Positions 1,832 to 26,565 of a stretch of 29,559 nucleotides of DNA are shown here, in pieces; position 1 is the first letter of the stretch, and every line of letters begins with the position of its first letter. The stretch covers positions 1,366,781-1,396,339 of the forward strand of contig NW_003155237.1 of NCBI RefSeq assembly GCF_000003605.2. Direction: 5' to 3'. The notes under the pieces were generated by a model. That model was given only the letters and a program-made list of their open reading frames with translations, was not told the DNA's origin and ran no database searches. This DNA is from Saccoglossus kowalevskii. Its lineage: Eukaryota; Hemichordata; Enteropneusta; Harrimaniidae. Position numbers and translations under genes: made by a program.

Positions 1832-4800
1832 TCACAGGGCAGCAAAATAATCTTTGAATATTTTAGGTAATTCTTCTTCTTTGTAATCAAAGACTTTGAT
1901 AGAATCCCCGTCATGTGCACCTCGAATCATACAGGACAGCTCTTGGGAATGAAAAAAAAAAAAAAAAATGGTGGTAACATTTCAAAAAATACTCCAATAG
2001 ATTCATATATGTCTGCATTATAAAATGTATATTATTTTAAGATCTTGAAAAAATATTTATTTTTTTTCATTTTCACAACCACTACACATTGTACTCACTT
2101 TTTCCTGGGTTTGTTGGTCTGTACAGACAGAGAATTTTCTTCTTCATAGCAACAGCTCTACCAATTTCATACCCAACTCCAAGAGATGGTTGTGTTACTT
2201 CAGCTACAACAACTTGAAATAATGAACAGTAAAAACTGATTCTATTTGGGTGTAACTAAGGTTTCATCAGTTGAGTGTTTACAGTAGATGCAGATAAAGT
2301 AAAATGATGAATATTCATATATATGATAGTTACACAGAAGGAGATAAATTAATAAACTCAGTTCAACAGCATATCAGCTGTTTCTACTTTGGAAACTATT
2401 CTTTTTCACACCTAAATATTTTTTTAAATAATTTTCTATTAATTAAAACATAGATTAAATTACGATGATTTTAAAGTAACTAGAGGTATTGATTAACATT
2501 TTTTGAAGAATCAGAAATAAATTATGCATGTGACATTTAAAAAAGTGTTAATTAGCCCAATGCGATATGAGTTGACGAACCCTCACACCCACCAAAACTC
2601 TATGAATGTAAGTGAATTACCCACCATTTGAAGTCTCCAACCAGTCAATGTCTCGATCATGAATAAATTTAGCGTCAAGTTTTTCTGCTTCTGTAAAATA
2701 AAATCAAAGAAAGCTTAGAAAGAATTCCCGTGTGCTGAGAGTATTAGAGACACAGTAAAAATTAATTCAAAATTACTTGCACTTGAGATATTGATGGAAA
2801 AGCTGAAAACTAATTATGCAAATCAGAAAATTAAAATGAACAGATTTGAGTGTAAAACTAATAAGATATGCGCAATGTAACAGACCATCTATGTACCAAG
2901 TTTTATTGAAATGTTATCAAAAAATTATGAATTATTATGCTAATTAGGGAATTAATATGAACAGATTTTAACCCAAAACTGATCATATTTGTACATTGTC
3001 CTAGAGCATCTATGTACAAAGTTACAATGAAATGTTATGATTAGTACTCGAGATATCAAGGAAAAAGCTGAAAATGAAAATAATTATGCAAATTAGGTAA
3101 TTAATATACACAATTATTTACCCTAAAACTAATCAGGTCTCTGCATAGTCCTAGAGAACCTATGTACAAAGTTTCATTGAAATGTGATGATTAGTAGTTG
3201 ACTATCAGTGGGAAAGCCGAAAATTTACTAATCATTATGCAAATTAGGTAATTAATATACACAGATTTTCACCCAAACCTAATCAAAACCTAGCATTAGT
3301 TCAGAGCATCTATGAACCAAGTTTCATTGAAATCCAATGAGTGGTTCTTTAGATGTCAGTGGAACAGTCATGGAACAGCTAAAAATCAGCTAATTATCAT
3401 GCAAATTAGGTAATTAATATGCAAAGATTTTTACCAAAAACTAATCGAATCTGCGCATAAGGTCAGAACATCTATGTACCTAGTTTCATCAAAATTCAAT
3501 GAGTGGTTCTTTAGATATCAGTGTAACAGTCATGGAACAGCTAAAAATCAGCTAATTATCATGCAAATTAGGTAATTAATAAGCATGGATTTCTACCACA
3601 ACCTAATCAAATCTGCGCATTGGCCCAGAGCATCTATGCACCAAGCTTCATCAAAAACCGATGTATGGTTCTTGAGATATCAGTGGAACAGACGGACACA
3701 CATACACACACACACATACACATACAGACAAGCTAACTGCAAAGACTCCCATTGTGTGCTTTGCACACAGGAGTAAAAAAAAAACAAGATATGATAGTGT
3801 TTTCAATTTTCCAGCTATGTCATTTACCGGTATATTGTCACATTTACTGGTGATATTTTAGTATCTGGTTTTTGTTACACTACTTATTTTTCTAACTTAT
3901 CTTTAAAGTGCAATAGTCATTCATTACATTATTTTCAAGGAGAGCTAGTCCCATGTGTGACATATACAATGTTTATAAATTCATTGTTTGTTTACATTTT
4001 TTATCAGTGGCATCTAAAAATTAGATACATAATAAGTCCAGTATTGCTTTTTCGGTTTGAAAATCATTGCTAATAATACTTGTATGCATAGTGACAAGTT
4101 CTAAGCTTCGTTTCAAATTGCAAGAATGACATTGAATAGATCTTTGATGACATTCTTATAATAATAATATTGTTAATGGTATACAAATAAAAATATACGG
4201 TAATACATGGGAATGGCAAGCTGTTGGTCTTTTTATTTCCTTTCTACAAAAAACTGTATATATACCGGTTTATTATTTGACAAAAATAATCAATAATTTA
4301 GATTAAAACAACATTGACACATCAGCAAGTCAATGAAATTTCACATCAAAACAAAAGGAAAGATTGAAGGCATGAAATATTAATAATGTAAATTAATTAA
4401 AATAAGTTTGAGCCTTTTCAAACATAATAAAGCTCAACTACAAGTATGCAAATGCAATAAATTTACTATTTTATAATACTTTCATCATACACACGTAAGC
4501 AATTTCCTTCAGTCAAAACAGTGGTTGAAATACAACTGCAACATACAGAGTTGACTTGTTCTTCTATTATGTATCAGCAAATTATTGCACATCAATTATA
4601 ATATAAAAATAATCATTTTAATAAACTATCACATACAAGTATCTCTGAGTAAGGTATATATAGTATTTTAATTTTACAGCATGAGGTATATATAACTATT
4701 TTAGTTTGGATGTCGGGGTATATATTTTTGATCAGTTTTGCAACTTGAGGTATATATAGAATTGTATTTGGTCAGCCTAATGTATATATCCTTTACCTCA

Positions 4801-6012
4801 AAATTCTTAACTGCCAATTAGCTCACTTCATCCAACTGTGAGGTAGAAACAAATATTTTTTTCTTTCACAAAGTGAGTATTTGACTGGGTTTCCAGTTTG
4901 AAATTTGCAGGTTTTTTTTCTATTGACTGAAACAGAAAATCACCCCGTCCCTCCCAAGGGGTAATATGATTGATAGAACCTTATTGAAATACATTGGCAG
5001 TTTATAGAAATTTTTTTTGTAGTTTTTAAGTTTGACAGCCTGAGGTATATATAGTAATTCAAAATGAAATAATCTAATAGAGGTCTACCCAAGGTACATG
5101 TACATATATACTGAGTATCAAATTGAACTAGCAGTTATCAGGAAGAGACCAAATAGCATTTTTTATAAAAAAATGACAAAAATATTCAAAAAGTAACGTA
5201 AATGAAAGTATTGTAACAAAGTGTTCAAATAAAGGTCCACCCAAGGTACACACATAAGTATCTAACCAATATGAGAGGTGGTTTTCATAACAGCATATTT
5301 CACTAGAAACGACACAATGTATAAATGTATAAAAGCAAAAGAGTTAGCAGTTTTAAAGGAGAAGTCATTTAAAGGAACAGTTGACACAGGAGGAGGCATG
5401 CCAAACAACGACGATGGAAAATCACCTATATCAACAGTTCCAAATGGGCTTTTTATCTCTGATCACATCAAAGCTAAAAATTCCATAAATATTATCATGG
5501 TACTGTGAAAGAGAAATAATCAGCTTTCACTAAACCTAAGTATTGGAGTACAATATGCAACTTGTATGTACAGTAATATCTAATCCTACCTTTCAAATTT
5601 AGCTAGTATATCGGTAACTTGGCTTAATTTAAAACCAACAGAGCTTAATTATCAAAATAGTCTAGTACCATTTTAAATACATGTGCAGAGTAACCTGACA
5701 GTGAAATATTGAAATTATTGATGAAAATGATACTCACTGTTAGAACAAATAACCAGCTGAGAACGAGCAGTAGTTAATTTACACCGGAACTGTATTGTAT
5801 ATACTAGTATTATGAACATTAATAAAAATACACAAAGTGTTACAATTTTTAATTAAATGAGATTGAATGTTACCTTTTTCAATTTCAACTTTCCCAACAT
5901 GTTCTGTCAGTACCTCCCCATATTCCTGTAGTTGTTTAATAATTCTGGCATAGAGATTGGCATCTTGGCGGCCGCCGTGTATACTTCCACAAAAATATAT
6001 ATTTAGACTCAT
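1832..6012 (-). CDS. DNPH1: 2'-deoxynucleoside 5'-phosphate N-hydrolase 1 (DNPH1/Rcl), copy A, four exons
   Basis: Coding exons on the minus strand are 6012-5874 (139 nt), 2690-2625 (66), 2212-2099 (114) and 1941-1832 (110). Each junction is GT-AG and each intron is phase 1, giving 142 aa. DNPH1 hydrolyses the N-glycosidic bond of deoxynucleoside monophosphates, including 5-hydroxymethyl-dUMP, in nucleotide-pool clean-up. It belongs to the nucleoside 2-deoxyribosyltransferase fold. Visible signatures are [13 protein letters not shown] (Y6, S10), the HDRDIDW segment (D60), [20 protein letters not shown] with the nucleophile-type E84, and [12 protein letters not shown] (S109). These match the Tyr/Ser/Asp/Glu/Ser active-site set known from mammalian Rcl. 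The protein is shorter than human DNPH1 mainly at both tails. Its first intron (5873-2691) is 3.2 kb and full of tandem repeats. An AG acceptor (TTTTATTCAG) ends 14 bases 5' of the ATG, so an untranslated upstream exon is likely. A paralogue lies at 26565-24871. Family assignment is firm. Exon limits rest on phase agreement and homology. Confidence 0.93.
2755..3785 (+). repeat. Degenerate tandem array, unit about 120-162 bp, in DNPH1A intron 1
   Basis: Six 'atgcaaattaggtaattaat' anchors occur at 2816, 2937, 3086, 3237, 3399 and 3561, spaced 121, 149, 151, 162 and 162 bases. Each unit also has 'agagcatctatgtaccaag', 'tttcattgaaat' and 'agatatcagtggaa'. The rightmost units are the most alike. 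The array ends in 'gacggac', a CA-rich microsatellite and a short A-tract, the usual ending of this kind of invertebrate interspersed repeat. It is non-coding. Confidence 0.8.
3696..3727 (+). repeat. (CA)n-rich microsatellite
   Basis: A run of ca/cata dinucleotides closes the tandem array in DNPH1A intron 1. Confidence 0.8.
4653..4812 (+). repeat. Five diverged 32-bp tandem units headed by GGTATATATA
   Basis: The motif ggtatatat(a/t) begins at 4653, 4685, 4717 and 4749, with a decayed tgtatatat at 4781: exactly 32 bases apart each time, although the rest of each unit has drifted strongly. One more 'cctgaggtatatatag' stands alone at 5044. It lies inside intron 1 of DNPH1 copy A. It is non-coding. 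Confidence 0.75.
5080..5255 (+). repeat. Pair of related phrases 'aggtc(t/c)acccaaggtaca'
   Basis: Near-identical 20-base phrases at about 5080-5100 and 5231-5250, some 150 bases apart, mark a short diverged duplication in DNPH1A intron 1. The rest of the interval is AT-rich sequence with no coding signal that I trust. Confidence 0.4.
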
Positions 6013-6081
6013 TTTGTACCTTGTCCTGAATAAAAGCTGGAAGAGTGAATGTTCAACCACATCAATTTATCAGGTTGTCAG

Positions 6082-6193
6082 AAAATGGTCACACCTATTT
6101 AACCCAAGGGGTGGTTCCGCATTTATCATTAGTTTGGCAATGGTCACAACCATTTTTATACAGGGGGGTGGTAGCATATCATTTATTTATAGA
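6082..6193 (+). repeat. 55-bp tandem dimer just 5' of DNPH1 copy A
   Basis: Two head-to-tail units share atggtcaca(c/a)c(t/c)att, a g-rich ggggtggt core and catttatc. The atggtc phrases start at 6085 and 6140, 55 bases apart. It lies 70-180 bases upstream of the DNPH1A ATG, in the promoter or 5' leader region. Confidence 0.55.
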
Positions 6194-6199
6194 AATTGA

Positions 6200-8000
6200 T
6201 TCCATGGGAAACAAATATACAAAAACATATTTTGATACTAATCAATATTGGTGATCAATATAAAACATCAACAGAACTCTAGCACCCAATTAAAATCTAA
6301 AACGTCGTTATTTTTCTTCAATAGAAACCGAAAAGAATGCAGCTTACTTCAGATTTACTCAAATTTGTGTGCTAGTATACATGAACAAATGTTGATATAT
6401 AAGTAGTGAATTGTTTCAGAATATTATAAAAACATTATGGTAGTCAAGTAATGCACTCCCACAAAACAAAATAAAGAACACCTACTAGAAACAAATTTTG
6501 TTCTTGTCTTTGAAAACTCAACTTCATCACTAAAATTGTTCATATCTATAACGCATTTCAATCAAGGAATGAAAATGCCATTTGATATGTAACACTTGCT
6601 TTATCCTATTAACAACTAACTTTCTTTTTGTAGTAGTAGTTATCACAACTAATCTTTATCGCTATTAACTGATAGAAACATTGTATTTCTAAGGATGCAA
6701 TAAAGTTATTATTATTATTATTATTATCTAAGTGATAAGTAGGCATTACCCGGTATGTCAAATATTTTATGAGGTCGCATATTCCCTTTGGTCAACCAAA
6801 GTTATGTATCTATAATGAACATATATGAGGTAGGTCTACTTGAGATAACTATATATTCAATAGCAAAACAATCAGACTTTTCAAGAAGAAGTCAAAAATG
6901 TAAAAAATGTACACGGACACCGACCGGACGAACGATGAAAGACAGATGACGAAGGACAATCGGCAATATTAAGGTTGTACAATGCACAATACTCCAAAGC
7001 GGTCGTCAATTTGGCGCAAAACACAATTTATATTTCCACATGGTGAATTGCGAAGCATTGTGATATCGCATCTATCAGAATATTTTATGTTATCTTCAGC
7101 TTTACCACGCTTTTTTTCAATAAACTGAATCATGGATATACTAATTGTCAAGGTTATATTTTTTTTGTCTCCACAAATCAAATTTAAGTACCACTAAATA
7201 CGCCCCTAATTAGACTTCCCTCAGTGTGTATCTTTTAGCGCCAGCATAAAATGTAGAAGCACTTAGTTTGAAAGGAATATAGTTTATTAGTATACATACT
7301 ACAATGTACGGAAATATACAATTTATTGGAAAGTTCAAAGGTAAAACCATCTTGCCTTTTCAAAGTATAATGGGGATGTCAAATTCAAATTTGACTTGTT
7401 CCAATTATAATCAGACACAATGAGGTTATACTGATAAAGATAAAATAATAATAATATTGATATAAACGAAAACAATAGAAAACAGTTACGTTAACAGTTA
7501 TGTTAAACAGTTACGAAGAGGGCTGAAATACCCACAAAATAACAGGAAAGTAACCAAGCTACTAGAAACAATGTACCGGGTACGGCAGTTATGCACTGCG
7601 TTTTATGTCAAAGGGGTATTACCTGCACTTGAGACTCAAAGTAACAAGCTCTTCAAATGTCCAGTCTGTGAGATATCGGCATAATATGTCACACATCAAA
7701 AAGTCAATTTGAAAAAAAAAAAAACTGAGGCAGATGTAGATGCATGGTATCAAAACATTTAAAATATACTTGTATTTGGAATGGAAATATTATGTTCAAA
7801 TGAAATATTCTAGTATCACACTACAAGTAATTGTAATTAAATAACACACAACAGATGACATACTTCAACACAAACATCTAAAACTGAAGTGACAAGTCAT
7901 TGAAAATGACACAGTCCCCGTTAAATTTTTGAAAGTTCTCTTTTTGCTCGTCATATTAAAGCGGAGGGGTTGTTGTGAGCGTGTCCTTGAAACTTGAGTT
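6200..8000. other. Gene-free intergenic stretch
   Basis: AT-rich sequence with a short (TTA)n microsatellite at 6706-6727 and a 'cggacaccgaccggacgaacg' remnant near 6915. Open frames are short, lack family similarity and are not flanked by convincing splice sites. I see no RNA gene here. Confidence 0.6.
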
Positions 8001-8004
8001 CCAA

Positions 8005-8660
8005 GTGGCGTATACAACAGATTGTTTATTTACATCAAAACATGTGTTCCGTGTAGTAGTAATATGGCCAAAAATAAAAACAGCCGTTATTCGGCCATCT
8101 TTGATCTGATTATGAAACACACTGATATGTATGATGTATGTACCAAATACGAATGAAAATGGTACATAAATTGTGGAATATAGTAGTAAGGCCAAAAAGT
8201 CAGATGGCTGTCAATCGGCCATCCTTGACTAGATTTTGAAACAAATTGTCATGGACATGCGTCCTAACATGTATAAAGTACATGTATGTGCCAAATTCGA
8301 ATGAAAACTGACAGAGCACGTTCAAGATACCGCATAAAAAAAACAAGATGCCTGTCAGTCGACCATCTTTGATCCAATTGCGAAATAAATCGTCATGGAC
8401 ATGTATCCTAACATGTATAATCTATGTACCAAGTTTGAATGAAAACTGACAAAGCATGTCCAAAATACAACATTTTCAAAAAACAAGATGGCTGCCAGTC
8501 GGCCATTTTCAATCGAATCGCTAAACCACTGCATGTGCATATGTCCCACATAAAGTACTAGGCACATGCAAAGAATGAACGGAATCGGTCCAAGGGATTC
8601 TGAGATACGACTCCGGACGGACGCACAGACGGAGACCGAATTATAAGTCCCCGTTTTGAA
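8005..8660 (+). repeat. Dispersed repeat with 'aagatggc...cagtcggccat' hairpins, copy 2, internally tandem
   Basis: About four units of 130-140 bases repeat a GATGGC-x-CAGTC(G/A)GCCATC inverted phrase, 'gatttgaaacaaatcgtcatggacatg', 'cctaacatgtataa', and 'taccaaattcgaatgaaaactgac'. The right end shares the terminal phrases seen at 845-1255, including aaaccactgcatgt and cgacggagaccgaattataa. It is a non-coding interspersed repeat. Confidence 0.7.
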
Positions 8661-8670
8661 TTGGGGGCAT

Positions 8671-8776
8671 TTCGCCCAATTACCACTTCGCCCGAACGGT
8701 TTCGCCCGATTACCTGTTCGCCCGATTACCATTTCGCCCGATTGCCATTTCGCCCGATTACCAGTTCGCCTGATTC
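8671..8776 (+). repeat. 16-bp minisatellite 'ttcgcccgattaccat', seven units
   Basis: The ttcgcc phrase starts at 8671, 8687, 8701, 8717, 8733, 8749 and 8765, a 16-base period with one 14-base unit. It abuts the end of the preceding dispersed repeat. Open frames across it are translated repeat, not genes. Confidence 0.85.
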
Positions 8777-9434
8777 CTTGTATGTTTGGTATTTACGTGT
8801 AGTCAAAACAAGATAACGTAGAAGTCGAAATTTGTTTTTATAAGGTGACAAATGTGAAGTTTACAACAGGGTTGTAACGTAATTTTATGCCATTGCGGCC
8901 ATCTTGTGTGGGTCATACCATTTGTGTATTGGGAGGAAACAATGAGTTGAGGGACAGTCACACCTTTTTGTTTGATGGTGGTAGTTCCTTTAGTTAAATG
9001 CCAATATAATACCCAAAGTTCGGAGACCGTCACAATTACTTGATTGCAGAACCACCTTTTATTTAGGCCAGTGATCTCGATAATAAAGACACCGTGTCAG
9101 GAACATTCGATGTACTAGTCAGGGCTTTTTTAGATAATGTTGACTGTGGTCGATTTCATGTTAGACAATTAATCGTTTCGCAACTATTAAATTTGAAAGC
9201 AACTTTCATGATTATCATGATTGGGCCCGGGGTTTAAGCAATGTGCCCACTTGAAAATGAAATAACTGCAACCTCCCGGAGTTCTTGAAATTAAAAAAAA
9301 ATAACAAAAGCTAATATGCCCAGTGTAAAAATAAAAAACATTTTAAAAGTTTGTGTACATGCATTTTACTATTTAAAAAACAAATTCATTGAAAACAGTA
9401 AATCACTTCACCACGTAAAACTTGCATTTATTTT

Positions 9435-9805
9435 GTAATGAAAGATTAGCACAGAGATAAACCCCATTAACAGCGGTACACTTTCGTAATAAAAGATTAA
9501 CACTGGGAGAGACTCCGTTAACAGCGGTACACTTTCGTTATAAAAGATTCAAGCGAGAGGGTCGTCACCTGCGCACGCGCAAGAATTGAGTCCCAAGCGA
9601 CGATAACAACACACGCTGAACGCAAAGGTTCATGCGTAGACGCTTGTTTGTAAACAATGACACGCTATGGCCATCTGACGCATGCGCAGGTGACGACTCC
9701 CCCGCTTTAACACTGGGGTAGGCCCCGTTAACAGCAATACACCTTTGTAATGAAAGATTAGCACTGAGATAAACCCCATTAAACAGCGGTACACTTTCGT
9801 AATGG
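9435..9805 (+). repeat. 51-bp satellite, five units, interrupted by a MITE
   Basis: Units carry g(t/a)aat-aaagatta(g/a)cac(a/t)g, acccc(a/g)ttaacagcggtacacttt. Equivalent g(t/a)at phrases fall at 9435, 9486, 9537, 9747 and 9799. The third step is 210 bases. Removing the 160-base MITE plus target duplication at 9551-9710 leaves 50, in step with the 51-base period. Confidence 0.85.
9551..9710 (-). mobile_element. TTAA-flanked MITE family 1, copy 1 (inverted)
   Basis: Terminal inverted repeats: the left end reads AGCGAGAGGGTCGTCACCTG and the right end, reverse-complemented, AGCGGGGGAGTCGTCACCTG. The right flank is TTAA (9707-9710) and the left flank is TTCA, a one-base decay. Neighbouring satellite units show the uninterrupted site gaTTAAcactgg, so target duplication of TTAA is directly visible. 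TTAA specificity points to a piggyBac or Kolobok transposase. The interior is non-coding. Relatives are at 12396-12556 and 23920-24074 in the opposite orientation. Confidence 0.85.
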
Positions 9806-10384
9806 AACACTGGGACACGCCTCATCATCAGCACAATGTTAAAAAGAAAAAAAATCTGAAATGTGAAATCCTATTGTATTCAGGTAAACGAATCTTTGCC
9901 AACAAAGACCCTACTCAACTTCTGTAGACAAATCTATGTAACTCACCGTAGTCCTAGTATTTTTATTTTTATATTTCCATTGAACAAGCCAATGGAATCA
10001 ACACATGAGTGAAAGAAACACAGACAACATATTTATTGTAACATTTATTGTATACACACATTCGTCAGTTTAAAACATTTTCAAGTATGACTGTCAATGG
10101 CCAATTTAGCGTCATTTTTCACATGACGTTTGCCGAATGCACACATATAGCACGTAATATGTGCGTTGAAATATCACCATGACCAAGTGTTAAATCATTA
10201 TTCCATTATGACACAATATGTAAATATCTTTAGACTCTACAAGATAAAAAAGAAATGAAATATTTATTATTTCGGAGTGTCTCGTGCCACGGGCGTGGCA
10301 GGAGACAATGTGGCTATTGCCACGTCCCGGAAGTAAACGTACCGACGTTCTATGTGTAGTTTTGGCCGTCATATACAGATTTTT

Positions 10385-10672: not shown

Positions 10673-10821
10673 TGTAATAATTGCATCGGTTAACGGTTAA
10701 CGACTAAATAAATGGGGGAACATGTAAAAAAATTTTAATGTACTATGCTAAGTTTCGGGAAAATTTCAAAGTAATCATGGTGTAATTGCGTCGATTAACG
10801 ACTTGTATAACAGGGAAATAG

Positions 10822-10871
10822 NNNNNNNNNNNNNNNNNNNNNNNNNNNNNNNNNNNNNNNNNNNNNNNNNN
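10822..10871. other. Assembly gap, 50 N
   Basis: A run of exactly 50 N. It cuts the 3' side of the ZAD-like exon, so the splice donor of that gene may be missing. Confidence 0.99.
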
Positions 10872-11236
10872 TCAGTGATTTCGGTGATCTTACAACTAGA
10901 CAAATTGGAGTGTTTCTTAAAGCTTTTTCCTTCAGCAACCAATGGAGATCTCGCACATCGCTTCACATTCGAATTTAGTCTGCTCGAAGTTTGGCATTTC
11001 TCTCGAAATTCATTCACCTGACGATCTAGTGTCAACAAATGGCGTTCACAATTCCTACAAATCAAACCCTCAATCACCTCTACTTCGCCATATTTCGACA
11101 ACAACAACTTCAAGTTATGTTTCCCGGTACCTTCGTGGATTTTTTTTGTTCGTGTCCCCACTGTACTACAAACAAAACACGCTTGAGATGAATTACTTAT
11201 CTTGACCGGCGTACATGTCACAGTGGAGGCAGCCAT
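10872..11236 (-). CDS. ZAD-like Cys2-Cys2 domain protein, N-terminal exon, truncated by gap
   Basis: ATG at 11236 opens 121 codons up to the N run. The peptide has C20FVC23 and C60RNC63 (CX2C-X36-CX2C) with 'KHNLKLLLSKYGEVEVIEGL' between and a helical 'LDRQVNEFREKC' after. This is the layout of a ZAD-type treble-clef zinc-binding domain, usually a protein-protein module at the N-terminus of nuclear or transposon-related proteins. After residue 85 the chain is Ser/Lys/Arg-rich linker. The frame beyond the gap closes within 14 codons, so the coding part must leave by splicing or continue inside the gap. The start sits in AAAATGGCTGCC, a good Kozak context that also resembles a YY1 site. Downstream exons were not found in the window. 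Assignment to ZAD proper rather than a look-alike is uncertain. Confidence 0.55.
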
Positions 11237-11275
11237 TTTGTTTGTTGCGAAGTAACCATGTGACCATCATGTGAC
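11237..11275 (-). promoter_or_regulatory. Possible promoter with two CACATG E-boxes
   Basis: Immediately 5' of the ZAD-like ATG, two GTCACATG phrases on the minus strand lie 12 bases apart. The ATG is embedded in a YY1-like CAAAATGGCTGCC. No TATA box is evident. Motif-level inference only. Confidence 0.3.
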
Positions 11276-12380: not shown

Positions 12381-12395
12381 AATTCAATTCATTGG

Positions 12396-12556
12396 TTAAA
12401 GCAAGGGAGTCGTCACCTGCGCATGCGTCAGATGGCCATAGCATGTCACTGTTTACAAACAAACGTCTACCCATGAGCCTTTGCGTTTTAGCATGCATTG
12501 TTATCGCTTGGGGCTTGATTCCTTTGCGTGCGCAGGTGACAACCCCTTCGCTTTAA
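12396..12556 (+). mobile_element. TTAA-flanked MITE family 1, copy 2
   Basis: Both flanks keep TTAA (12396-12399 and 12553-12556). Ends read AGCAAGGGAGTCGTCACCTG and, reverse-complemented at the right, AGCGAAGGGGTTGTCACCTG. The interior matches copies 1 and 3 (agatggccatagc, gtttacaaacaa, cctttgcgtttt). It is non-autonomous and about 160 bases. Confidence 0.85.
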
Positions 12557-12580
12557 TGTTAAAAATGCAAACACTGCACA

Positions 12581-12945: not shown

Positions 12946-14847
12946 CTATAGCTTTTTTGTCAGATCTTCTTTTATGTGAGTCTTCATATGTGAATCCAGC
13001 CCAGTTTTTTGTGAGTAACAATTTCCGCAGCGGTCACATTGGTACGGTTTCTCTCCAGTGTGTATTCGCCTGTGTTTCACAAGATTGTCTGTCCATGAGA
13101 AAGTTCTATCGCATTCAGGACAGCGAAATGGTTTTTCCCCTGTATGTACCCGCATATGTTTCTTCAGACTGCTTTTAAGTGTGAATTTCTTGTGGCAGTC
13201 ACCGCACTCAAAATTTTTATCAGTTCTGTGAGTTTGCATGTGTTGGTATAACCGTTTTTTCATTGCACACACGTAACCACACTGTTTGCATTGCATAGGT
13301 TTCTCACCAGTATGGATTACTTTGTGCTCAGCGAGCAATTTTGGTGTAGTGAATGACCTTCCGCACTCGTTACACATGTGTCTTTTCTCACAAGCATGTG
13401 ATCTCACATGTGTGATCAAGAAACATCTGTTTGCAAATCTTTTGTCGCATTCCGTACATACAAATGGTTTGTCACTTAAGTGCGTTTTTCTATGAGACAC
13501 TAAACTGCCTTTGTTTGATACAACCTTACCACAATCTGGGCATTCAAACTCTCTAAGGGGGCCAATCATCATACTATTTTTTAGGTAGGGTGACTGATCA
13601 TCCACGCAGCAACAACTACCCTTGCAACCACCCCCGTCATACTTCTGAGGTCGGTGAGTTTTCCGTCGAGTCCAGGTCAGTGTAGGATTTTCTGCAAAAC
13701 TCTGAGCATAATCATGAAAGTGATCTAGTCTTTCTGCGTCTGTTGAACATGCAGGAAGATTCATGCTTGATTGCTCAATGGAATATTGAATGTGGTCTTG
13801 TCTGTTTTCAAATCCAAGAAAGGCATCTTCATGCTGACCAAATGTTTCTGTACCATCTGAATCTACGATCACACCTGTGATTGTTTCTTCTTCGGAACAT
13901 GTACTGCTCTCTTGTTTGATTTCAACATCCATAAAGACTTGTTGATGCTGAACAACATTTTCTGCATCAGTTGAACCTACTGGAATACCGACACTTGTTT
14001 CTTTTTGCTGAGAAGTGTGGCTTTGTATGACTTCACAAAACAATACATTATCATTACATTTTTCGTCAGCAATTGATTCTAAATAAGAACTTGTGTTTGC
14101 TTTATCTTTTGATTGTAAGATTCTGTCTTCTTTTTGGAAACCATGTAATTCATTATTACAACATCGGATGTCTTCTTCAGTTTGTATTCCTATGTCAACA
14201 AATTTTTTTTCATTTTTTTCAAGGTCCTGGTCATCACCATTATTGGTGACAACACTTGTGATAATGTGTACCTTCCTTAGAGATGATTGGGAATCATTGT
14301 TCTGGATTGATGAACTCCCTATAGTATGTGTGACCAATTCAGAATTGGTGAAAATATTCTGTGGATAAACAGTGTTGTGTTGGCAAGGTCTTTCTTCTGC
14401 ACACGTTCCTGGGTCATTTTTACTGGTAGTCAGTATATTGTGACCAACGAATTGATGACCCAAATTATTGTGTAATACGTTTTTATTGGTGTGCGTCTGG
14501 GTGTCAAAATTCCCTCCAAAACTCTGTCCAACTTCAGGTCTTGATGTATCTGATGCCACAAATACGTTAGGGGTGACAATTTTATCACACTGTTGATTTG
14601 CAAGCACCTGCGGCTCAATTTTGATGACAACATTCCCCGGCACAGACAGGCAACCATCTTTTCGCTGGGATGGTTTTTCCACGGTATGTGTGCTCATTCC
14701 TGAATTGGTGGTGGGACTGTTGTTTAACCAACTGCCACCAATATTGGGTTGGTATGATATTTCTTTCGAACATGGTGGCATTCCTTTAAGTGGACGTGAA
14801 TTATCAAAGCTCCGCTCACTTTCTTGGCATTCTCGTGTCATACTCAT
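12946..14847 (-). CDS. Seven-finger C2H2 zinc-finger protein, probable DNA-binding regulator
   Basis: One open frame of 633 codons from ATG at 14847 to TAG at 12946. Residues 1-430 are acidic and Ser/Thr/Asn/Gln-rich, probably disordered. Seven classical C2H2 fingers follow at about residues 434-624, the first FECPDCGKVVSNKG... and the last YQCDRCGNCYSQKTG.... Three linkers are canonical TGEKP, and the others (LSDKP, ACEKR, RTDKN) are degenerate, so the later fingers probably do most of the DNA binding. The N-terminal half has a repeat of about 38 residues in three copies (from residues 286, 325 and 363), two SUMO-type sites (VIKIEP, EIKQES) and a DIGIQTEE segment like dynein light chain LC8 ligands. 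No KRAB, BTB, SCAN or ZAD domain is present. The frame extends open upstream of the ATG for 11 codons and beyond, with several AG dinucleotides, so an upstream exon is possible. It is likely nuclear. The orthologue is not recognised. Confidence 0.9.
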   Translation of the reverse strand: MSMTRECQESERSFDNSRPLKGMPPCSKEISYQPNIGGSWLNNSPTTNSGMSTHTVEKPSQRKDGCLSVPGNVVIKIEPQVLANQQCDKIVTPNVFVASDTSRPEVGQSFGGNFDTQTHTNKNVLHNNLGHQFVGHNILTTSKNDPGTCAEERPCQHNTVYPQNIFTNSELVTHTIGSSSIQNNDSQSSLRKVHIITSVVTNNGDDQDLEKNEKKFVDIGIQTEEDIRCCNNELHGFQKEDRILQSKDKANTSSYLESIADEKCNDNVLFCEVIQSHTSQQKETSVGIPVGSTDAENVVQHQQVFMDVEIKQESSTCSEEETITGVIVDSDGTETFGQHEDAFLGFENRQDHIQYSIEQSSMNLPACSTDAERLDHFHDYAQSFAENPTLTWTRRKTHRPQKYDGGGCKGSCCCVDDQSPYLKNSMMIGPLREFECPDCGKVVSNKGSLVSHRKTHLSDKPFVCTECDKRFANRCFLITHVRSHACEKRHMCNECGRSFTTPKLLAEHKVIHTGEKPMQCKQCGYVCAMKKRLYQHMQTHRTDKNFECGDCHKKFTLKSSLKKHMRVHTGEKPFRCPECDRTFSWTDNLVKHRRIHTGEKPYQCDRCGNCYSQKTGLDSHMKTHIKEDLTKKL

Positions 14848-15374
14848 CTTTGCTATTGCAAATATAGCTGTAGCTAACAATGTTTTATTTTTTATGTATA
14901 CAAACTACATACAGTACAAACTGGTACTCTTCAAACTATATAATTCATATATAGTTCTTGCGTAGTTCTCAGTCACTATTGTTTTCTTGTTTAATTCACC
15001 AGTTTGCTTTTCTTTATGCAGGTCCTTTCATTCATATGTTGAATATTGCTTCTGAAATCAATGGACTTCACGCTAAAAAAATGAAAAATTATATAAATTA
15101 ATCATATAATAAATAAAACTCAGATATTAAAGTGAAAAGATATATGGAGTAAACTATGCAGGGAAAAACTAAATTATTTAAAAGAAATCATTAACCAGCT
15201 CTGAGGTAATACGTTCAACCTTATATGGTAAACGCGCATCATATTTTAAACACATTTGAACATTTTTCTTTGTTTAGATACAGAAACAATATTTAGCGCA
15301 TGACAGGATTAGAATCACATCAAAATGCAAACAATCAAAAATCTTGTTTTGCTGGCATTTCAGACTGTTATATT

Positions 15375-17586: not shown

Positions 17587-17651
17587 TTTCAAAGTTCATT
17601 GCAGTTCACTGACAACTACTGTCGTCTATGCCACTTTTCTGTGTTTATGTC

Positions 17652-17667: not shown

Positions 17668-17699
17668 TAGTTGGTTGTAATATGAATAGATCTCGCGTT

Positions 17700-18570
17700 A
17701 CTTTGTGAGATCTAATGATAATCTTGTTGCTCCGCAACTTTTACTCGGTACGATAAGAACTGATAACTTAAACAAACGTGGCACGCATGACTTCAAAAGA
17801 AGATGCCGTGTTGAGAGTCTGTTGTATTACTAGTCTGAGGATACAGTAACTAATTTTGTTGGAAATATAACAGCGACTTTGACAAAATTTAGTCACTGCC
17901 ACACCACCCATATGAAAAAAGTGACTGAATTGTAATAATTTCCATTGGCGAAAGCTTCAACGGTTAAGGAGACTGGTGTACATTTCATAAATTTATGGTT
18001 GCACTGATAATCTAATTTGTGGGACACCATTAAATTATGAAAAAGATTAATCTTTTAAAAAATGCTTTTGAAATTTAGAGAGCTTCGAAAATTAATTAGG
18101 GGGCTAAGATTCTAGTGGCATGGCATGATATTGCTTGTGTTGTGTGCTTTTCAAAACAATGAAATCATAATCCCTGATATCAGGATTGGCATCCAAAGTA
18201 AGATTCTTGGTGTACCAGGGTATTATGGGGGAAAAGTGGGTCAACTAAATTACAAATGTCAGAATATAGATACCATAATGGACTGGTGACAGAGCTTCTA
18301 TAGAACAATTATTAATTTGGATCACTTTGACATCATTATCAGCAATTTTGGGTTTACAAACTTGCCTATACTATACTGCTCAGATTGCTAACGTGGTACA
18401 TGTACATGTAATTGCTTGCTTACATACAACAGTCATTGTTTATGCATAAACTCTTGAAACAATTAATTAAAGCCCATTTGTTAAGCATCTTTAGGGTGCC
18501 AACTGCCTGTCTGTGAAAATATTAATATAGGGTATCAAGTAAATACAGAAAGCCTGCTTAGAAACAGATA
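17700..18570. other. Gene-free stretch
   Basis: AT-rich sequence with no ORF of note, no splice-bounded exon and no repeat I could pair within the window. Confidence 0.5.
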
Positions 18571-18576
18571 ACAGAG

Positions 18577-18690
18577 TACTGTAAAATACTTTATTTTAGT
18601 TAGAATTAAATTACGCTGGAAAGACTGAATCATTCCTTCAGCGAAAATAACGAAAATTAACTCCAAGCAAAAATAAAGTATTCTACAGTA
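18577..18690 (+). mobile_element. Mariner-type MITE, 114-bp copy
   Basis: TA at both borders. The left arm CTGTAAAATACTTTATTTTA pairs with the right arm, reverse-complemented CTGTAGAATACTTTATTTTT, continuing into cgtta/cgctg phrases. Same family as 1377-1587 but lacking about 100 bases of the core. Confidence 0.7.
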
Positions 18691-19084
18691 GTTAATTACA
18701 GTAACTGTTACATAACTGATTGAGAAGAGTTTATTTACAAGGGATATCTACGTTTCTTCACTGCCCTGGAATCAAACTAGGTTTTCAAAGAAATCATCCT
18801 GAATTTGGCATACATGTACAAACTTTATTATTGGCTATTATAACACAATGCTGTGTATATGATTACAGAGTGTTGAAGTCAGAAACAAATGTACAAATGC
18901 AGTTTGGGAGGCCCAAACCAGTCTGAACTACATTATACTGTTCGTAAACCAACAACCATTATATAACTAATAAACACCTCAGGAATTAACATTTCAGTTT
19001 ACTCAAACTATTTATGACAATTAGCACGTTGAATACATTACATCATTATTCCCACTACCTAATGGAACTAGAACAAAGACAACC

Positions 19085-19247
19085 TTAAAGGGGAACTGCT
19101 CAATCCCATGGATTGCACTAACGAATCATGGGACACTATTGTTTATGTTGTTTACAATGTTAATCTATCTTTTGTTATCCATTGCTATTTTAATCCAGGA
19201 AGTAAATATGTTGTGGGATTAGGCTTGACTGGAAAGTGCCCCTTTAA
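19085..19247 (+). mobile_element. TTAA-flanked MITE family 3 (AGGGG(A/C)ACT ends)
   Basis: TTAA at 19085-19088 and 19244-19247. Ends are AGGGGAACTGCTCAATCCCA and, reverse-complemented, AGGGGCACTTTCCAGTCAAG. Terminal identity is short but clear. The interior (catggattgcac, aatcatgggacactattg) recurs at 21915-22010. Confidence 0.7.
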
Positions 19248-19249
19248 AG

Positions 19250-20250
19250 ATGTTTAACTGCCTAGAGCACGCCATTTTACAAGTACTTTTAGTTTTGCAT
19301 GCATTTGTAAACTTTTTGTGTAAAATAAAGCTTATATATTAAGATGATGTAGTCCGGCAGACAAGGTGACCAGCCTGTATTTGGAGTCTAAACAAAATGT
19401 TTAAAGGATTTTGGTTTCTGATTCGCAATGTTTGACTACTGCCAAGACAGATATTTGACAAATACTGTAGCTTTTGTGTTTAATACTGTACCAGTATTAC
19501 TTAACACATGTCAAAGGCCTCAAAAAAATTGTTGGCTTCCAGCCAAGTAATCTTCACACATTTGCTCTGCTGATCAATAATGTTAGGTTACTTAGTCGCT
19601 TCATTGCTGTGACTGTTTTATCTTTTTCAATATAAGGAGTTGTTATTTTATTTGTGCTTGTTATATTAAATATTAATGATGTATTGGGGTGATCAATAAA
19701 TTATTTCTTTCAAAAAGGAATATTTCATGACTCGACTTTCTGTGTTTTAAAACTCAGTTTCACTGTAAGTTAAATGGGTCGGTATCCTGGTGTATTATTA
19801 TCAATCTGTGGATTGGAAATCATTACAAATGTTGTGACACACAAAACGTACGCGGAGTTGATTGAGAACGCAAACCAATATTTACATAGCTATACCTGCA
19901 TAATTCTGCCCATGGCACTTTGCGAAGGAGTTTTTCACATTTCCTAGTCTGTCAAAAACCCCAACAGACAAGGGGAATCATTGGTCCATTCAAGATATGC
20001 TAAGAGTTGCAGTTTGACCTCAAAATATCGTAACTTGCATATTTCTTGAAGCACTCGGCCATGCGATGCTACTGTCTTGGGTTAGATAACATACTAACTT
20101 TATTAGTTCAGCGGTTAGATAAATGTACTTTATTTATTAAATGCTTGTGATAACCAAAATTTGGGTTGTAAAGCTTTTCGATGACGGAAAATCTGTGATA
20201 ACACTGCAGTAAGGAAGAGCATCTTAAAAACATATTTATAGAGTACATAC
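19250..20250. other. Gene-free stretch
   Basis: AT-rich sequence without a supported gene. Short runs of T/A and a few stop-rich frames only. I see no RNA gene. Confidence 0.5.
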
Positions 20251-20254
20251 TCAT

Positions 20255-20372
20255 AACAGCACATTCATATTTTAGTAAATTTCTCTGTTTATTTAATTGT
20301 AGATGAAGCAATTAACAGCACATTCATATTTTAGTAAATTTCTCTGTTTATTTAATTTTAGATGAAGCAATT
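20255..20372 (+). repeat. 59-bp tandem duplication, nearly identical
   Basis: The unit starting aacagcacattcatatttta at 20255 repeats at 20314. I see one mismatch (attGtag against attTtag), so the duplication is recent. Confidence 0.9.
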
Positions 20373-20489
20373 ACACTGTAGTCTGTAGTTCAATGGAGGT
20401 CAAAAATATGCATTCGTCTACCCTTACTAAATTTGCAATCGAGAGGATGAGAGGTTTGTGACGAAAATACCTCTATTCAGGGATTTTTT

Positions 20490-20960
20490 TAAACAAGGGA
20501 ACAGGCCCGGGGGGCACAGTTGTCCTCACGACATGGCTATGCACCCCTTACCCTGGGGAGCAGATCCTCTTGGCAACCATAAAATTCTTGATGGGATCAC
20601 ATGAGGCCACAGTCTTCAACTGTGACCTGCCTAATAGTAATTTTGGTTCCAAGGAAGCCATAAAATGCTCCATTTTAACTTAGAAATATTAAAAACTTCT
20701 CACCCTGGTAGGGAGAACCTTATTTCCCCCACTTGGTGGCGCCGCTGAATTTCAGTGCTCCCTCTCTCTTGCAGTTTTTTTCTAGAAAAATCCCAGTCCA
20801 TTCACACATGAAATACAAACACAAGTGAAGGTCACACCAATTCAAAAGTGGAGCAGTTAAAAAAAATTGCTCAAGCGAGAAGGTTTTTTTTCTAAAAATG
20901 AAAAAAAAAAAAAAAAAAAACCTGCGAAGCCAGGAATGTTGCTGTCCCCACCCATGACTT
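20490..20960. other. Non-coding stretch with A-runs
   Basis: Locally GC-richer sequence (ggcccggggggcac, ggtggcgccgctg) of unknown nature, then a broken A20-type run at about 20900-20919. No gene support. Confidence 0.4.
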
Positions 20961-21050
20961 CAAATGGGACACTCCCGAAGAATGAGCATAAACGAGAGAT
21001 CAGTGTTTATTTTGAAGCCGGCATTGTTACCTCGAAACGTTTCATTCGCC

Positions 21051-21203
21051 ATGTTTTTTTTATACGTGTTTGCGGCTGTGGTGTGGGCGGTTGTGGGACT
21101 CACTGGCGTCCACAGGCTCTTTGTACTGTGTGTCTGGAGGAAGAGAATGTTGGAGAGAGGGGTCTCTTACACGCTACAGCCACCACACCTAGCCTGCGAC
21201 TAG
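21051..21203 (+). CDS. Small ORF with a hydrophobic N-terminus, doubtful
   Basis: ATG at 21051 (CGCCATGTTT) gives 50 codons: MFFLYVFAAVVWAVVGLTGV, then HRLFVLCVWRKRMLERG and a short tail. The first 28 residues could be a signal anchor followed by a basic stop-transfer stretch, as in membrane-anchored enzymes. The interval is locally richer in CpG than its surroundings. No convincing donor follows before the TAG, and I recognise no family. It may be a first exon or a chance ORF. Confidence 0.2.
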   Translation: MFFLYVFAAVVWAVVGLTGVHRLFVLCVWRKRMLERGVSYTLQPPHLACD

Positions 21204-21914
21204 CATTTTAGTAACGTATCTCGTAATTCTTAAATCAACAGTACAACGCACACAACATACTAGTTACTCTTACTGCAGTGTCAGTGATCCGTTAGGGACA
21301 GTCCGCCGTGATATGTTACGTACAGCGTCAATACATCAATGAAAATCATAGTATACTGCAAGGCAATGTCTTACTCACCTTGAAGAGGAAACATACAAGT
21401 AATGGAGTTCAAGTTTCAGCGCAAAAACGCACAACACGGTCGTTGGGTTTTTCAATACGTACAACAGTGCACGCGAGGGAGGAGTCAACTGACGCTAATT
21501 AACATGTTGAGGGCGCTGTAACAATTTTTCTGAATAAAGTCGCAAGCTTATGTGGCTGTCAATCAGGATTTGGCCACGGGAAAAGGTGCCTTTAGGATTA
21601 AACCGTCAACTGCGATTCATTTTTCGTTGTGTACTCAAAGGCTCACATGCTAGAAGCTATGTGGATTATAGGTGTGGCCTTTTCAATTTCAATGTTGAAT
21701 CACGTGCATTTTCATTGCCAACAGTGTCGATCTTGTATATACTGCAGTTACATAGTTAAACCACGTGAATCATCGTGAAAGAGCTACCTTTTATATTATA
21801 TAGTATTATATTATCTTATTATCAAAATTAAAAACAATTGATGAGAAATTAAAATTTAAAAATAAACTAAACACCAACCATGAAGCAATAATAAAATAGA
21901 ACTAGAAAACTTAT

Positions 21915-22045
21915 AAAGGGGAACCGCTCAATCCCATGGATTGCACCAAAGAATCATGGGACACTATTGTTTATGTTATTTACAAAGTTAATCTATCTTT
22001 TTTTATCCAGAGATTAGGCTCAGGGGCACCTCCCTGCCCCGTCCC
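21915..22045 (+). mobile_element. MITE family 3, 3'-truncated copy
   Basis: From aaaggggaaccgctcaatcc onward it matches 19085-19200 closely (cccatggattgca, aatcatgggacactattgtt, gttaatctatctttt), then jumps to gattaggct and ends in a decayed ggggcacc. The left TTAA has become TATAA. A C-run lies just right of it at 22066-22077. Confidence 0.65.
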
Positions 22046-22408
22046 TACCCAGCTATGTATGACTGCCCCCCCCCCCCGGCGTCTTCCGACCACTCGCGAG
22101 ATGACTATAAGTATGAGCCCAGGTCATTTTCATTTAGATGTCTTTTAACGGCGACAGACATTTTTCGGCGGCCAGGTTTTTTTTTTCATTTTCAGAACTC
22201 CCTCCCATGATTACATTATGTTATTACTAGTAGCTTCGCGACGAGTGACTTTCGTGGTTAGTGGCTTTCGCAGTAACTGGTCCTTTTATCAGAGTTGAGA
22301 ATTAATGTTTTATGTGTCTTTAACAACTGGTGCAAATCTGGGAATACCACTCTAGTAGCTGTTAATTTGCCCTTATGATTTATGAAGTTACTCTGGCAGG
22401 AGTTCCTA

Positions 22409-22660
22409 AAGCAAGGCTGACACTTGCTCGGATCTGTGGCACGCAGTGGCAGTGCGCAAACTAGTCGTAAACTGGCGTGAAGTGTATGTAAAGCAAGGCT
22501 GACACTTGCATGACTTTTGGTCATGATCTTGTCGTGCCATTTCGTGCCATTTTGGGGCACGAACTGGGAGGCTGGTTCACGCATAGTTCACGACGAGTTC
22601 ACCGATAGTTTGCGCATAGTTTACGCACTTCCCACATTGGCACGACGAGTTTGCGATATG
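22409..22660 (+). repeat. Short duplicated phrases 'gcaaggctgacacttgc' and 'cacgacgag/agtttgcgca'
   Basis: gcaaggctgacacttgc occurs at 22411 and 22493. Phrases cgtgccatt, agttcac/agtttgcgcatag and ggcacgacgag recur several times in 22520-22660. It looks like a decayed compound repeat. The minus-strand frame across it is not credible as a gene. Confidence 0.45.
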
Positions 22661-23915
22661 TAAATGTATGGAAGACCCACAACTAGATTGTTGGGAATAA
22701 ACCAAAATTACTCACCAAATGCATCGCGCACAGTAAATATGGACCAAAGATAAATAAAAGTACTCAATATTATGTTTCATAATCCGAAATTTGTTCAAAA
22801 TTTTTTTCCTTGTGCCCCCCTTGCTACCTTAAAATCGATAATTATTAATATTAAATCTATAGGATATTGTTCACTTGGTATAGATCAAACTGTAATTATA
22901 AATATTAATAAAAAGAATTAAAAGTAAAAGTTAAGGAAATAATGGATCATTTTGAAGAATCCTTCGTTTAAGGTATCATGGCAGCTACCACTCTACTAAG
23001 AACTTGAAAATATGCACACACTATAAAAAGGCGACAAATACCAGTTATTGCACACGCACACAAACGCGCAAACAAGTGCGACGGTCTATACTCCAGAACG
23101 GGCTCTTCAAATAGTGCCATTCGCATTTTGAATTCTGACCTGTTCTATATTTTTATTATACGTCACCGAGCAAAAAGTTTGAGATAATTAGATTAATCCT
23201 TGCAATGGGAAACACTAGTAAACGTACTAATAACTTGTATATAGAGGCTGCATCGTGAAGCTGCAAACGGTGCGCTCAATAACATAATGAGAAAGATGCA
23301 ATTTAGTGACGCTGCCTCTCGCTCAGGCTGCTAATCACCTTTTGTCGAGAAAAAAAAAAACATGACAGAACACTTATGAAACGAGTTTTGATGATTTTGT
23401 TTAATATTTTTATCGGAAGAGTACATATCCAATACATCAGTGATGCAAAAACGTGAGTTTTTGCTTCAGATTTTGCGAAAGCTGGAAAACCCCGTTGCAA
23501 AACTTTCACTTTACTTTGTTTCCTATTTTGGGGCGGACATCCGGGCATTTTCACCGCCTGGCAACCATCACAGTGAAAACAAACGTACTTTGGGATAGTT
23601 GTCGGGACTCTCCTGAACAGTGTAACAATATTACCCCTACACATGCAACTAATATAAATTTAGTTGCTCAGGATTACTTCAAAGTTGAGTTTGTGCTGTT
23701 TTCTTGACTTTAGCCGCGGCTGTTTTCACCGGCTCTTCGACCGGCGTTCCACAGCAGCTTGCACAGAGCATGTTTATACACAGAGCCAATAGAAATACAA
23801 GCGGTGTAGTAGAAAGTTCTGTGACGTAGCTCCGCCCCGAGATACTGTGCATGCAGCCTCCCAAGTGGTGATTTATTTGGCTCATCACCGAAAAGACGAT
23901 TCAAATAATTTCTTC
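22660..23915. other. Gene-free stretch
   Basis: No splice-supported exon or recognisable protein. Frames near 23300-23900 on both strands are overlapping and mutually exclusive, with no family features. Confidence 0.5.
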
Positions 23916-23919
23916 AATA

Positions 23920-24074
23920 GCATTCGTCACCTGCGCATGCGTCAGTTGCCCATAGCGTGTCATTGTTTGCAAACAATCGTCTACCCATGAGCCTTTGCGT
24001 TTTTAGCGTGTGTTGTCATCAACTCTTGGGACTCAATTCCCGCGCGTGCGCAGGTGACGACCCTCCCGCTTTAA
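23920..24074 (+). mobile_element. TTAA-flanked MITE family 1, copy 3
   Basis: The interior and right end match copies 1 and 2 (tcgtcacctgcgcatgcgtc on the left; right end, reverse-complemented, AGCGGGAGGGTCGTCACCTG followed by TTAA at 24071-24074). The left terminus is decayed to ttcaatagcattcgtcacc. Confidence 0.8.
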
Positions 24075-24225
24075 TCATTAGAAACATAACAAAGCATATA
24101 TTGCATGCATTATTTCAACCTGAGACTCGTTAACGGATGTTTATGACTAAACGCTACGGATGTGTTCGACACCATGTAAACGCACGAGGCTAATGTTCAC
24201 CACATCGTCGACGTTTATAACCGTT

Positions 24226-24804
24226 ATTTTATTTAATTTATTAACGCACAACATCCCCCGGGGGATGAAAAGGGTTACAAATCAGATATTAGTATAAGAA
24301 AAATAACTATATAAAAAGTAAAGAAACAAAAAAGCATAAATAAAAGGAAATGATAAAAAATTGTACACACTCAATGTGTTACTGGCTTAGTTTATGTAGG
24401 TGCTGCTGTCTTATATTAAAACAGTTTTTTAAATATTGTGCTAAAGGAATTGACATTTTCTCGTCACTTAGTAATGATATGAATTTATTTTCATTACTAA
24501 ATTTGGCAAAATTTGGTATACATTTATTAGTTACAATGTAAAGTTTTAATCTTATTTCATTGTAATAAGGACAATTTATGACAAAATGTTCATCTTCAAC
24601 ATAACCATTGTCGCACATATTGCAGACTCTGTCTTTAAAATCCAATCATGTATGCCGGTCTGTTTCAATTTTCAGACAGTGGTTGCCAAATCTAGATTTT
24701 GTTAAGGATTTGCGAAGTTCACTGTTTTTCATAATTGTTAAGTAGTTTTCTTGTTCTATTTTGTTTTTTAAAAGTTTGTAGGTTCTTAGTTTTTTTTTAG
24801 AATT
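24226..24804 (-). mobile_element. 5'-truncated LINE (non-LTR retrotransposon) 3' end
   Basis: On the minus strand: the C-terminal end of a reverse-transcriptase protein (from about 24804), a stop at 24379, a 3' tail with the phrase ccccgggggat, and AATAAA signals near 24237-24242 and 24228-24233. The 5' truncation is the usual outcome of target-primed reverse transcription. It sits about 65 bases downstream of the DNPH1 copy B stop, in the same orientation. Confidence 0.75.
24379..24804 (-). pseudogene. LINE ORF2 C-terminal fragment with premature stop
   Basis: The frame reads NSKKKLRTYKLLKNKIEQEN ... LRKSLTKSRFGNHCLKIETD-RHT, an in-frame TGA at 24648-24646, then DFKDRVCNMCDNGYVEDEHF and INCPYYNEIR. 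The CNMC...EDEHF...CPYYNEIR pattern is the zinc-knuckle-like C-terminus common in CR1/Jockey-like invertebrate LINE reverse transcriptases. The polymerase domain and everything upstream are gone, and one stop breaks the remnant, so it is dead. Confidence 0.75.
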
Positions 24805-24870
24805 TGATTTGATTCACCACTAAACACGCTCCAACTTGTGCGAATACCTATACTAATTGTTTGTGTTCTA

Positions 24871-26565
24871 TTATATATTTGCAAAAAAATCGTTAAAAAT
24901 CTCTGGCAAATCTTCTTCTTTGTAATCCAATACTGTGACGTTATCTTCGCGATGTGCACCCCGAATCATACAGGACAACCCTAATAAATAATCAAAGAGT
25001 GAAACAAAACACGAGACAAATGATTACAAACATACAGTGTTAGTGGATTGTTAGTCTGAACGAATCGAGAGAACATCACTGGAAGGTAAAGGGGTAGTAC
25101 TGAATAACATATGTGAACATCGGTGTAATTTTAGTCCTAATATTCGAAACCTAAGGGGGCCACCAGGGGCGGATCCAGCAAAATGTGATAGGGGGGTCCA
25201 AGCTTCGCTTAAAATTTACGGAACGTAAATCGCAAAGAAGCTATGCGTAATCCAGATGATATGAATAATCGTGTGACCGCCACTGGGAACCACATGCAGC
25301 ATTGTCTCAATTGATTTTAAAGGTAAACTTACATTTACTTGTAAATGGTCTGTACAGACAGAGCACTCTCTTCCTCATAGCCACAGCTCTACCAATCTCA
25401 TAGCCAACTCCGTGCGATGGCTGCGTTACTTCAGCTACCACAACTAGAATTGAAAAGTTTGCTATTTTGAATAAGTATAATAACAGCGTTATTAACAAAA
25501 CAAATTATAAAACAATATCCACAATATTTTGTCTAATAAATGAACAGGTTTAAATAAACGTCCCCAATAAATAAAAACGCCAGACGATATTTCAATACTA
25601 TGGCTTGGAATGAGTTATTTATCAGGACTAAGAAATTGTCACCTTCATGGTTTCAAACCGTATTAATCCTGATATGGTCAATCTGCATATAAACGAATAA
25701 CATAATATCAATATGAATGTGTACTAAACTGACTAATCTATATGAATAAACAACAACAATGTATATACCATCGGAAATGTTCAGCCACTCCATATCTTGA
25801 TCATAAATGCTTTGTGCGTTACATATCATATCCTCTATAAGGAAAGAACAAAACAATACAATAATGTATTTATTTAAATGTGTCATGAAAATAGTTCAGA
25901 GTCGTAACAAAAATACTCACTGAAATCAGAATCATTGTATGACATGTATTCGATTTTATTTTATACATTTAATTTTTATTATTGTTTTATTATTAGTTTT
26001 TTATTAAGTACATCTTTTTTTCTATTACTTTAACTTTCGTTCTTTCACGATTACCAAAAGTGTTAAAAAACTGCCAGCAAATAACAAATTTAAATGAAAT
26101 AAAATAAAATAAAGTATATGATGAAATAAATATTTGGAAATGTATTTTTAAAAAATAAGAACAAAAATCAAATTGTCTATACACTACAGTTTATGCTTAA
26201 ACCTTATAAAGATATCTTACAGCTCTATGTACATATTACTTACACTAAAATACAATGATGAGATATAAGCATATGAAACATACCAATTCAAACTAAGTGG
26301 ACATTTTACGCGTTTATGTTACCAAAGCCATAACTATCATTCAAATTAGCAAACACATTTGGGGACTAATACCAATCGACTTAGCAATTATATTTGCCTT
26401 TTTCGACAGTAAAAATTATGCCACACCTTTTTCAATACCAGCATGTCCAACAATTTCTGTCAGTACCTCGCCATATCCCTGTAGTAGTTTGATAATTCTT
26501 GCATAGAGATCGGCATCTTGGCGGCCGCCTTGAATGCTTCCACAAAAGTATATACTGCGACCCAT
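24871..26565 (-). CDS. DNPH1: 2'-deoxynucleoside 5'-phosphate N-hydrolase 1 (DNPH1/Rcl), copy B, four exons
   Basis: Exons are 26565-26427 (139 nt), 25834-25769 (66), 25443-25333 (111) and 24980-24871 (110), with three phase-1 GT-AG introns at the same positions as copy A, giving 141 aa. Signatures: IYFCGSIQGGRQD (Y6, S10), YDQDMEW (D60), [20 protein letters not shown] (nucleophile-type E84), [10 protein letters not shown] (S108). By hand count about two thirds of residues match copy A. Most change is in exon 2 (8 of 22 identical, D60 and W63 kept). TEHV of copy A is TEIV here, so a His near the substrate pocket is replaced. The first donor is the less usual GTGTGG. An AG acceptor (GTTATTATAG) ends 4 bases 5' of the ATG. 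Expected role as for copy A. Differences may shift substrate preference or tissue use. A LINE tail lies directly downstream. Confidence 0.92.
25164..25285 (+). mobile_element. hAT-type MITE, 122 bp, in DNPH1B intron 3
   Basis: Ends CAGGGGCGGATCCAGC and, reverse-complemented, CAGTGGCGGTCACACG share CAG(G/T)GGCGG. The 8-base flanks ggggccac (25156-25163) and ggaaccac (25286-25293) agree at six positions, as expected for an old hAT target duplication. No coding content. Confidence 0.65.

Follow-up and report, generated by a model that had tools for sequence, protein, structure and literature searches.

The window analysed here, a stretch of 29,559 nucleotides of Saccoglossus kowalevskii DNA, contains two genes of the DNPH1 family in the same orientation, copy A at 1832–6012 and copy B at 24871–26565, both on the minus strand. 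Each copy is an uninterrupted frame of four exons with start and stop codons and GT-AG junctions throughout, coding for a protein of 142 residues (A) or 141 residues (B). Exon lengths are 139/66/114/110 nt in A and 139/66/111/110 nt in B, and cumulative exon lengths place all three introns of each copy in phase 1. A first-pass annotation had described two such four-exon frames about 19 kb apart; its coordinates, strand, exon lengths and phases were all verified, and the gene ends are 18,858 bases from each other. Since a gap of 50 Ns (10822–10871) separates the two genes, their linkage depends on the scaffold. The introns are 3183, 412 and 157 bases long in copy A and 592, 325 and 352 bases in copy B. 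Intron 1 of copy A includes a diverged tandem array at 2798–3694 with copies spaced 121–162 bases, which explains part of its excess length (3.2 kb compared to 0.6 kb in B).

We mapped the positions known to be important in the human enzyme onto the individual exons, all of which lie on the minus strand. In copy A exon 1 (5874–6012, 139 nt) carries the start codon, the YFCGS motif, H12 at the site of human R30 and an LTEH motif with E37 and H38, corresponding to human E55 and H56. Exon 2 (2625–2690, 66 nt) contributes H57 and D60 (human H77 and D80), exon 3 (2099–2212, 114 nt) S78, L79 and E84 (human S98, L99 and E104), and exon 4 (1832–1941, 110 nt) S109, the equivalent of human S128, which is given to the partner subunit, followed by C110 and the stop codon. 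In copy B the YFCGS motif is again found in exon 1 (26427–26565, 139 nt) together with Q12 at the R30 site, E37, and I38 at the H56 site. Exon 2 (25769–25834, 66 nt) holds Y57 and D60 (human H77 and D80), exon 3 (25333–25443, 111 nt) S78, H79 at the L99 site and E84, and exon 4 (24871–24980, 110 nt) S108 (human S128), C109 and the stop codon.

Several other features lie between the two genes. A single-exon frame of 652 residues with C-terminal C2H2 zinc fingers is located at 12946–14904 on the minus strand, and an open frame with spaced cysteine pairs at 10874–11266, also on the minus strand, adjoins the scaffold gap and has no Pfam match at E 0.1. A short dispersed element occurs three times and in both orientations, at 9543–9711, 12395–12578 and 23924–24096. 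These occurrences are 72–93% alike where aligned and may represent a non-autonomous transposable element.

A search for further copies by tblastn at E 5, covering the window and 100 kb on either side (161,460 of 229,559 bases readable), revealed no third copy nearby; outside the two genes only three weak matches appeared (E 0.05, 1.8 and 4.2), which we took as chance. A Pfam profile search of the 572-Mb genome (4830 contigs) gave no match at E 0.001 and is uninformative on copy number, as even A and B were missed, probably because each exon is short. The excerpts of open-access literature on DNPH1 paralogs and on duplication in invertebrates contained no duplicate of an animal DNPH1.

Both proteins can be assigned to the DNPH1 family. 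When compared to the Protein Data Bank with phmmer, the best DNPH1 chains were those of rat and human, with E 3.2e-47 and 2e-45 for copy A and 1.5e-39 and 4.6e-39 for copy B. Matches to rat and human DNPH1 span nearly the whole length of both proteins, with E-values between 3e-47 and 6e-38 overall, and the Pfam family PF05014 was found at 63.7 bits (A) and 60.4 bits (B), above its cut-off of 28.8 bits. These scores exclude a chance likeness. As copy A is only 55% identical to the human and 58% to the rat protein, a comparison with mammals is of little use. A maximum-likelihood tree was calculated from 44 sequences, namely A, B, human, rat and 40 prokaryotic homologues, a sample from which the duplication is not datable relative to speciation. 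A and B form a sister pair with an ultrafast bootstrap of 100 and an SH-aLRT of 97. The node uniting this pair with human and rat has 96/71, its SH-aLRT of 71 staying below the usual 80. The 40 prokaryotic loci are all those confirmed by one genome scan out of 117 pattern matches, 27 of the 40 being labeled as Bacteroidota or Bacillota; none of 58 pattern matches on viral contigs was confirmed as a relative.

The roles of individual residues have been described for human DNPH1. According to excerpts of PMC10603095, the catalytic triad is Y24-D80-E104, E55 serves the second step of the reaction, and the phosphate is held by S98 and by S128 of the partner subunit, which is donated across the dimer. 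The same excerpts assign reading of the base to H56 and to R30, which D73 holds, and positioning of the hydroxymethyl group to a backbone amide of the helix that includes A129. For rat Rcl an ionic pair Arg19-Asp62 was reported to close the active site (PMC12884076, in excerpt); judged by alignment it is probably the same pair as human R30-D73.

The triad, E55 and the phosphate positions are identical in both copies (Y6, D60, E84, E37, S78 and S109 in A or S108 in B). The first-pass annotation had listed Y6, S10, D60, E84 and S109/S108 as kept active-site positions, and all five are indeed present in either copy. The mammalian enzyme is not matched at two more active-site positions: R30 is replaced in both copies, by H in A and Q in B, whereas H56 is retained in A and replaced by I in B only. 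The codons at the H56 site, CAT in A and ATT in B, are two bases apart, hence a single base error cannot account for I38. In addition L99 is conserved in A and replaced by H in B. Both copies have a C at the A129 site, which adjoins the partner serine, and both have a shorter loop, with D73 aligning to a gap or to an alanine depending on the alignment.

We then compared these sites with the 40 prokaryotic DNPH1-like proteins, which share the motifs of A and B. Sites 80, 98, 104 and 128 are identical in all 40. At site 56, which is absent from both search patterns used for collecting the homologues, 39 of them have H and one has R; at site 99 L occurs in 36, I in three and M in one, so that copy B differs from them at both sites. 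Site 30 is R in 39 homologues and H in one, a figure biased by the collection, as 35 of the 40 match a search pattern demanding R, H or Q at this position; R is also present in each of the five that match the other pattern alone. Copy A looks fairly conventional, but as it too lacks R30 this is a relative term, and its R30 change may be ordinary in its lineage. Since site 73 is variable, with D in 23 of the 40 homologues, we placed no weight on the loss of D73. Y at site 77 is found in 16 of 40, thus the H77Y exchange of copy B is common elsewhere.

Among related enzymes, the nucleoside 2'-deoxyribosyltransferases belong to the same Pfam family as A and B but match weakly in sequence, the best such chain reaching E 0.016 for copy A, and in contrast to them both copies keep the DNPH1 phosphate serines. 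MilB, a bacterial hmCMP N-glycosidase, is a related hydrolase in which the H56 position is changed as well. According to excerpts of PMC10603095, its residue at the Y24 site is F and that at the H56 site is E, and the partner serine is missing, whereas both copies have Y6 and keep the serine, with H38 in A and I38 in B. Near whole-length homology, the catalytic triad, the second-step glutamate and both phosphate serines are shared by A and B with mammalian DNPH1. From these residue states we would assign both copies, by sequence and by catalytic core, to the DNPH1 family, but class neither of them as mammalian-type in base recognition.

The two proteins are 68% identical (96 of 141 aligned residues). 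Four estimators gave dN 0.19–0.20 and dS 0.53–0.80 between the genes, showing that the duplication is old yet unsaturated. Identity at the base level is 117/139 in exon 1, 40/66 in exon 2 and 80/110 in exon 4; exon 3 is of unequal length and was not counted. In a blastn comparison of locus against locus exons 1, 3 and 4 aligned and exon 2 did not. The sole other match was a 105-base inverted one at 1377–1481 (E 2e-4), which is part of a dispersed repeat. The proposed old age of the duplication with introns no longer alignable therefore holds. A mis-assembled or unmerged haplotype is ruled out by this dS and by the lack of any aligning intron or flank, and a retrocopy by the presence of all three introns at matching positions in both genes. 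The identities of exons 1, 2 and 4, which are no formal conversion test, gave no sign of recent gene conversion. A local duplication at the DNA level, introns included, would have produced this pair of DNPH1 genes with their shared orientation.

Evolutionary rates of the two copies were unequal. In the full tree the terminal branch of A measures 0.072 and that of B 0.34, and in a test with fixed topology on 16 of the 44 sequences 0.09 and 0.38, the branch of B being longer in 199 of 200 bootstraps. At the amino acid level B thus has a branch four to five times that of A. Counts of copy-specific changes point in the same direction without being significant (11 in B versus 5 in A with human as reference, p 0.21; 12 versus 5 with rat, p 0.14). 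Selection against amino acid change, which the first-pass annotation had named as support for two functional genes, is seen as a dN/dS of 0.25–0.36 by the four estimators, which is an average over the pair and cannot separate the branches of A and B; the rate difference shows it to be uneven.

We also simulated neutral change from copy A as a stand-in for the ancestor, allowing base changes only, with 4000 runs per d. An intact frame survived in 12.5% of the runs at d 0.1, 2.6% at d 0.2, 17 of 4000 (0.4%) at d 0.3 and 4 of 4000 (0.1%) at d 0.4. Half of the observed dS between A and B corresponds to 0.26–0.40, a depth at which neutral survival is rare, which argues that B was constrained for much of its history. 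B may nevertheless have lost this constraint recently, given the survival seen at d 0.1 and 0.2.

We consider it somewhat better than even, at roughly 55%, that an old local duplication left copy A with the ordinary DNPH1 job and copy B as a retained hydrolase that is relaxed or re-specialised. Copy A would catalyse the dimeric, double-displacement N-glycosidic hydrolysis of a 2'-deoxynucleoside 5'-monophosphate, a candidate substrate being 5-hydroxymethyl-dUMP. E84 would act as the nucleophile assisted by D60 and Y6, E37 would take part in the second step, and the phosphate would be held by S78 together with S109 of the partner subunit. The histidines of copy A at both base-reading sites may, as a guess, partially compensate for R30. 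In copy B all of these catalytic and phosphate residues are present, both base readers are missing (Q12 for R30 and I38 for H56) and L99 is replaced by H79. Copy B would most likely still be a dNMP N-hydrolase, but one whose base preference is relaxed or altered and from which the base departs more slowly.

The expected size of this effect can be estimated from mutants of the human enzyme. R30A is about 6-fold slower, and in H56A turnover falls about 11-fold while KM rises only modestly, as given in excerpts of PMC10603095. In the part of PMC12751057 dealing with H56A the effect is about 12-fold and lies in the first half-reaction, H56 is rated as modestly important, and R30 and H56 are proposed to stabilise negative charge on the leaving base. 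With both side chains missing, slow cleavage of hmdUMP would be expected of copy B, provided that the rest of its pocket resembles the human one. As the odd substitutions of B affect these base-recognition residues and none of the five positions listed by the first-pass annotation, sub-specialised nucleotide sanitation, raised in general terms by the first-pass annotation, becomes a concrete hypothesis. Overall that earlier interpretation is partly supported. Neofunctionalisation in the strict sense, in which the pocket of B without R30 and H56 and with the new H79 acts on another dNMP, modified or purine, than A does, is a tentative proposal to which we give clearly less credence than to retention as such; if it applied, the organism would have two complementary nucleotide sanitisers. 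Given the roughly 11-fold slowing on loss of H56 and its modest rating elsewhere (PMC10603095 and PMC12751057, both in excerpt), a weakened enzyme is equally possible.

Alternatively, copy B may be a duplicate in decay, which is slow or inactive and drifts under relaxed constraint without having been interrupted so far; we regard this reading as possible but doubtful. It would fit the longer amino acid branch of B, its departure from highly conserved sites 56 and 99, the low identity of exon 2 (40 of 66 bases shared with A) and the activity cost reported for human H56A (PMC10603095, in excerpt). On the other hand frame and splice dinucleotides of B are intact although few neutral frames would survive to such a depth, seven catalytic, second-step and phosphate-side residues are kept, and pairwise dN/dS is well under 1. 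We consider it distinctly unlikely that B acts mainly as a partner subunit in an A:B heterodimer in which one site would be fast and the other slow or tuned differently. Completion of the human active site by S128 across the dimer (PMC10603095, in excerpt) and the strong conservation of the partner serine and the exon 3 region in A and B would be compatible with this role, but two homodimers would predict the same conservation. Least probable of all is redundancy of A and B for reasons of dosage with functionally near-neutral substitutions in B, since despite the identical triad and phosphate positions and the common Y at site 77 the replaced sites 56 and 99 hardly vary elsewhere and human H56A is slower (PMC10603095, PMC12751057, both in excerpt).

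Among metabolic genes it is common for one copy of a duplicated pair to evolve faster, for which reason the pair as such is of modest interest, and if B is only slow it is an ordinary old duplicate. The faster evolution of B together with odd changes on base-recognition residues turns the general question into a direct test of two proteins: a natural paralogue that has the cutting residues but neither H56 nor R30 offers a ready means of telling residues needed for rate from those needed for base preference. Substrate choice of DNPH1 is under current study; loss of the enzyme sensitises BRCA-deficient cells to PARP inhibitors, hence the interest in it as a drug target (PMC10603095, in excerpt).

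Ion-channel frames occur in the flanks of the locus, as does a Sec23/Sec24 trunk exon. A second duplicated pair was noticed about 12.6–18.8 kb before the start of the window (L049), consisting of two near-identical open frames about 5.7 kb apart, the first of which matches Ion_trans_2. The frames resemble what we take to be exons of a two-pore potassium channel, and this duplication is far younger than that of the DNPH1 pair.
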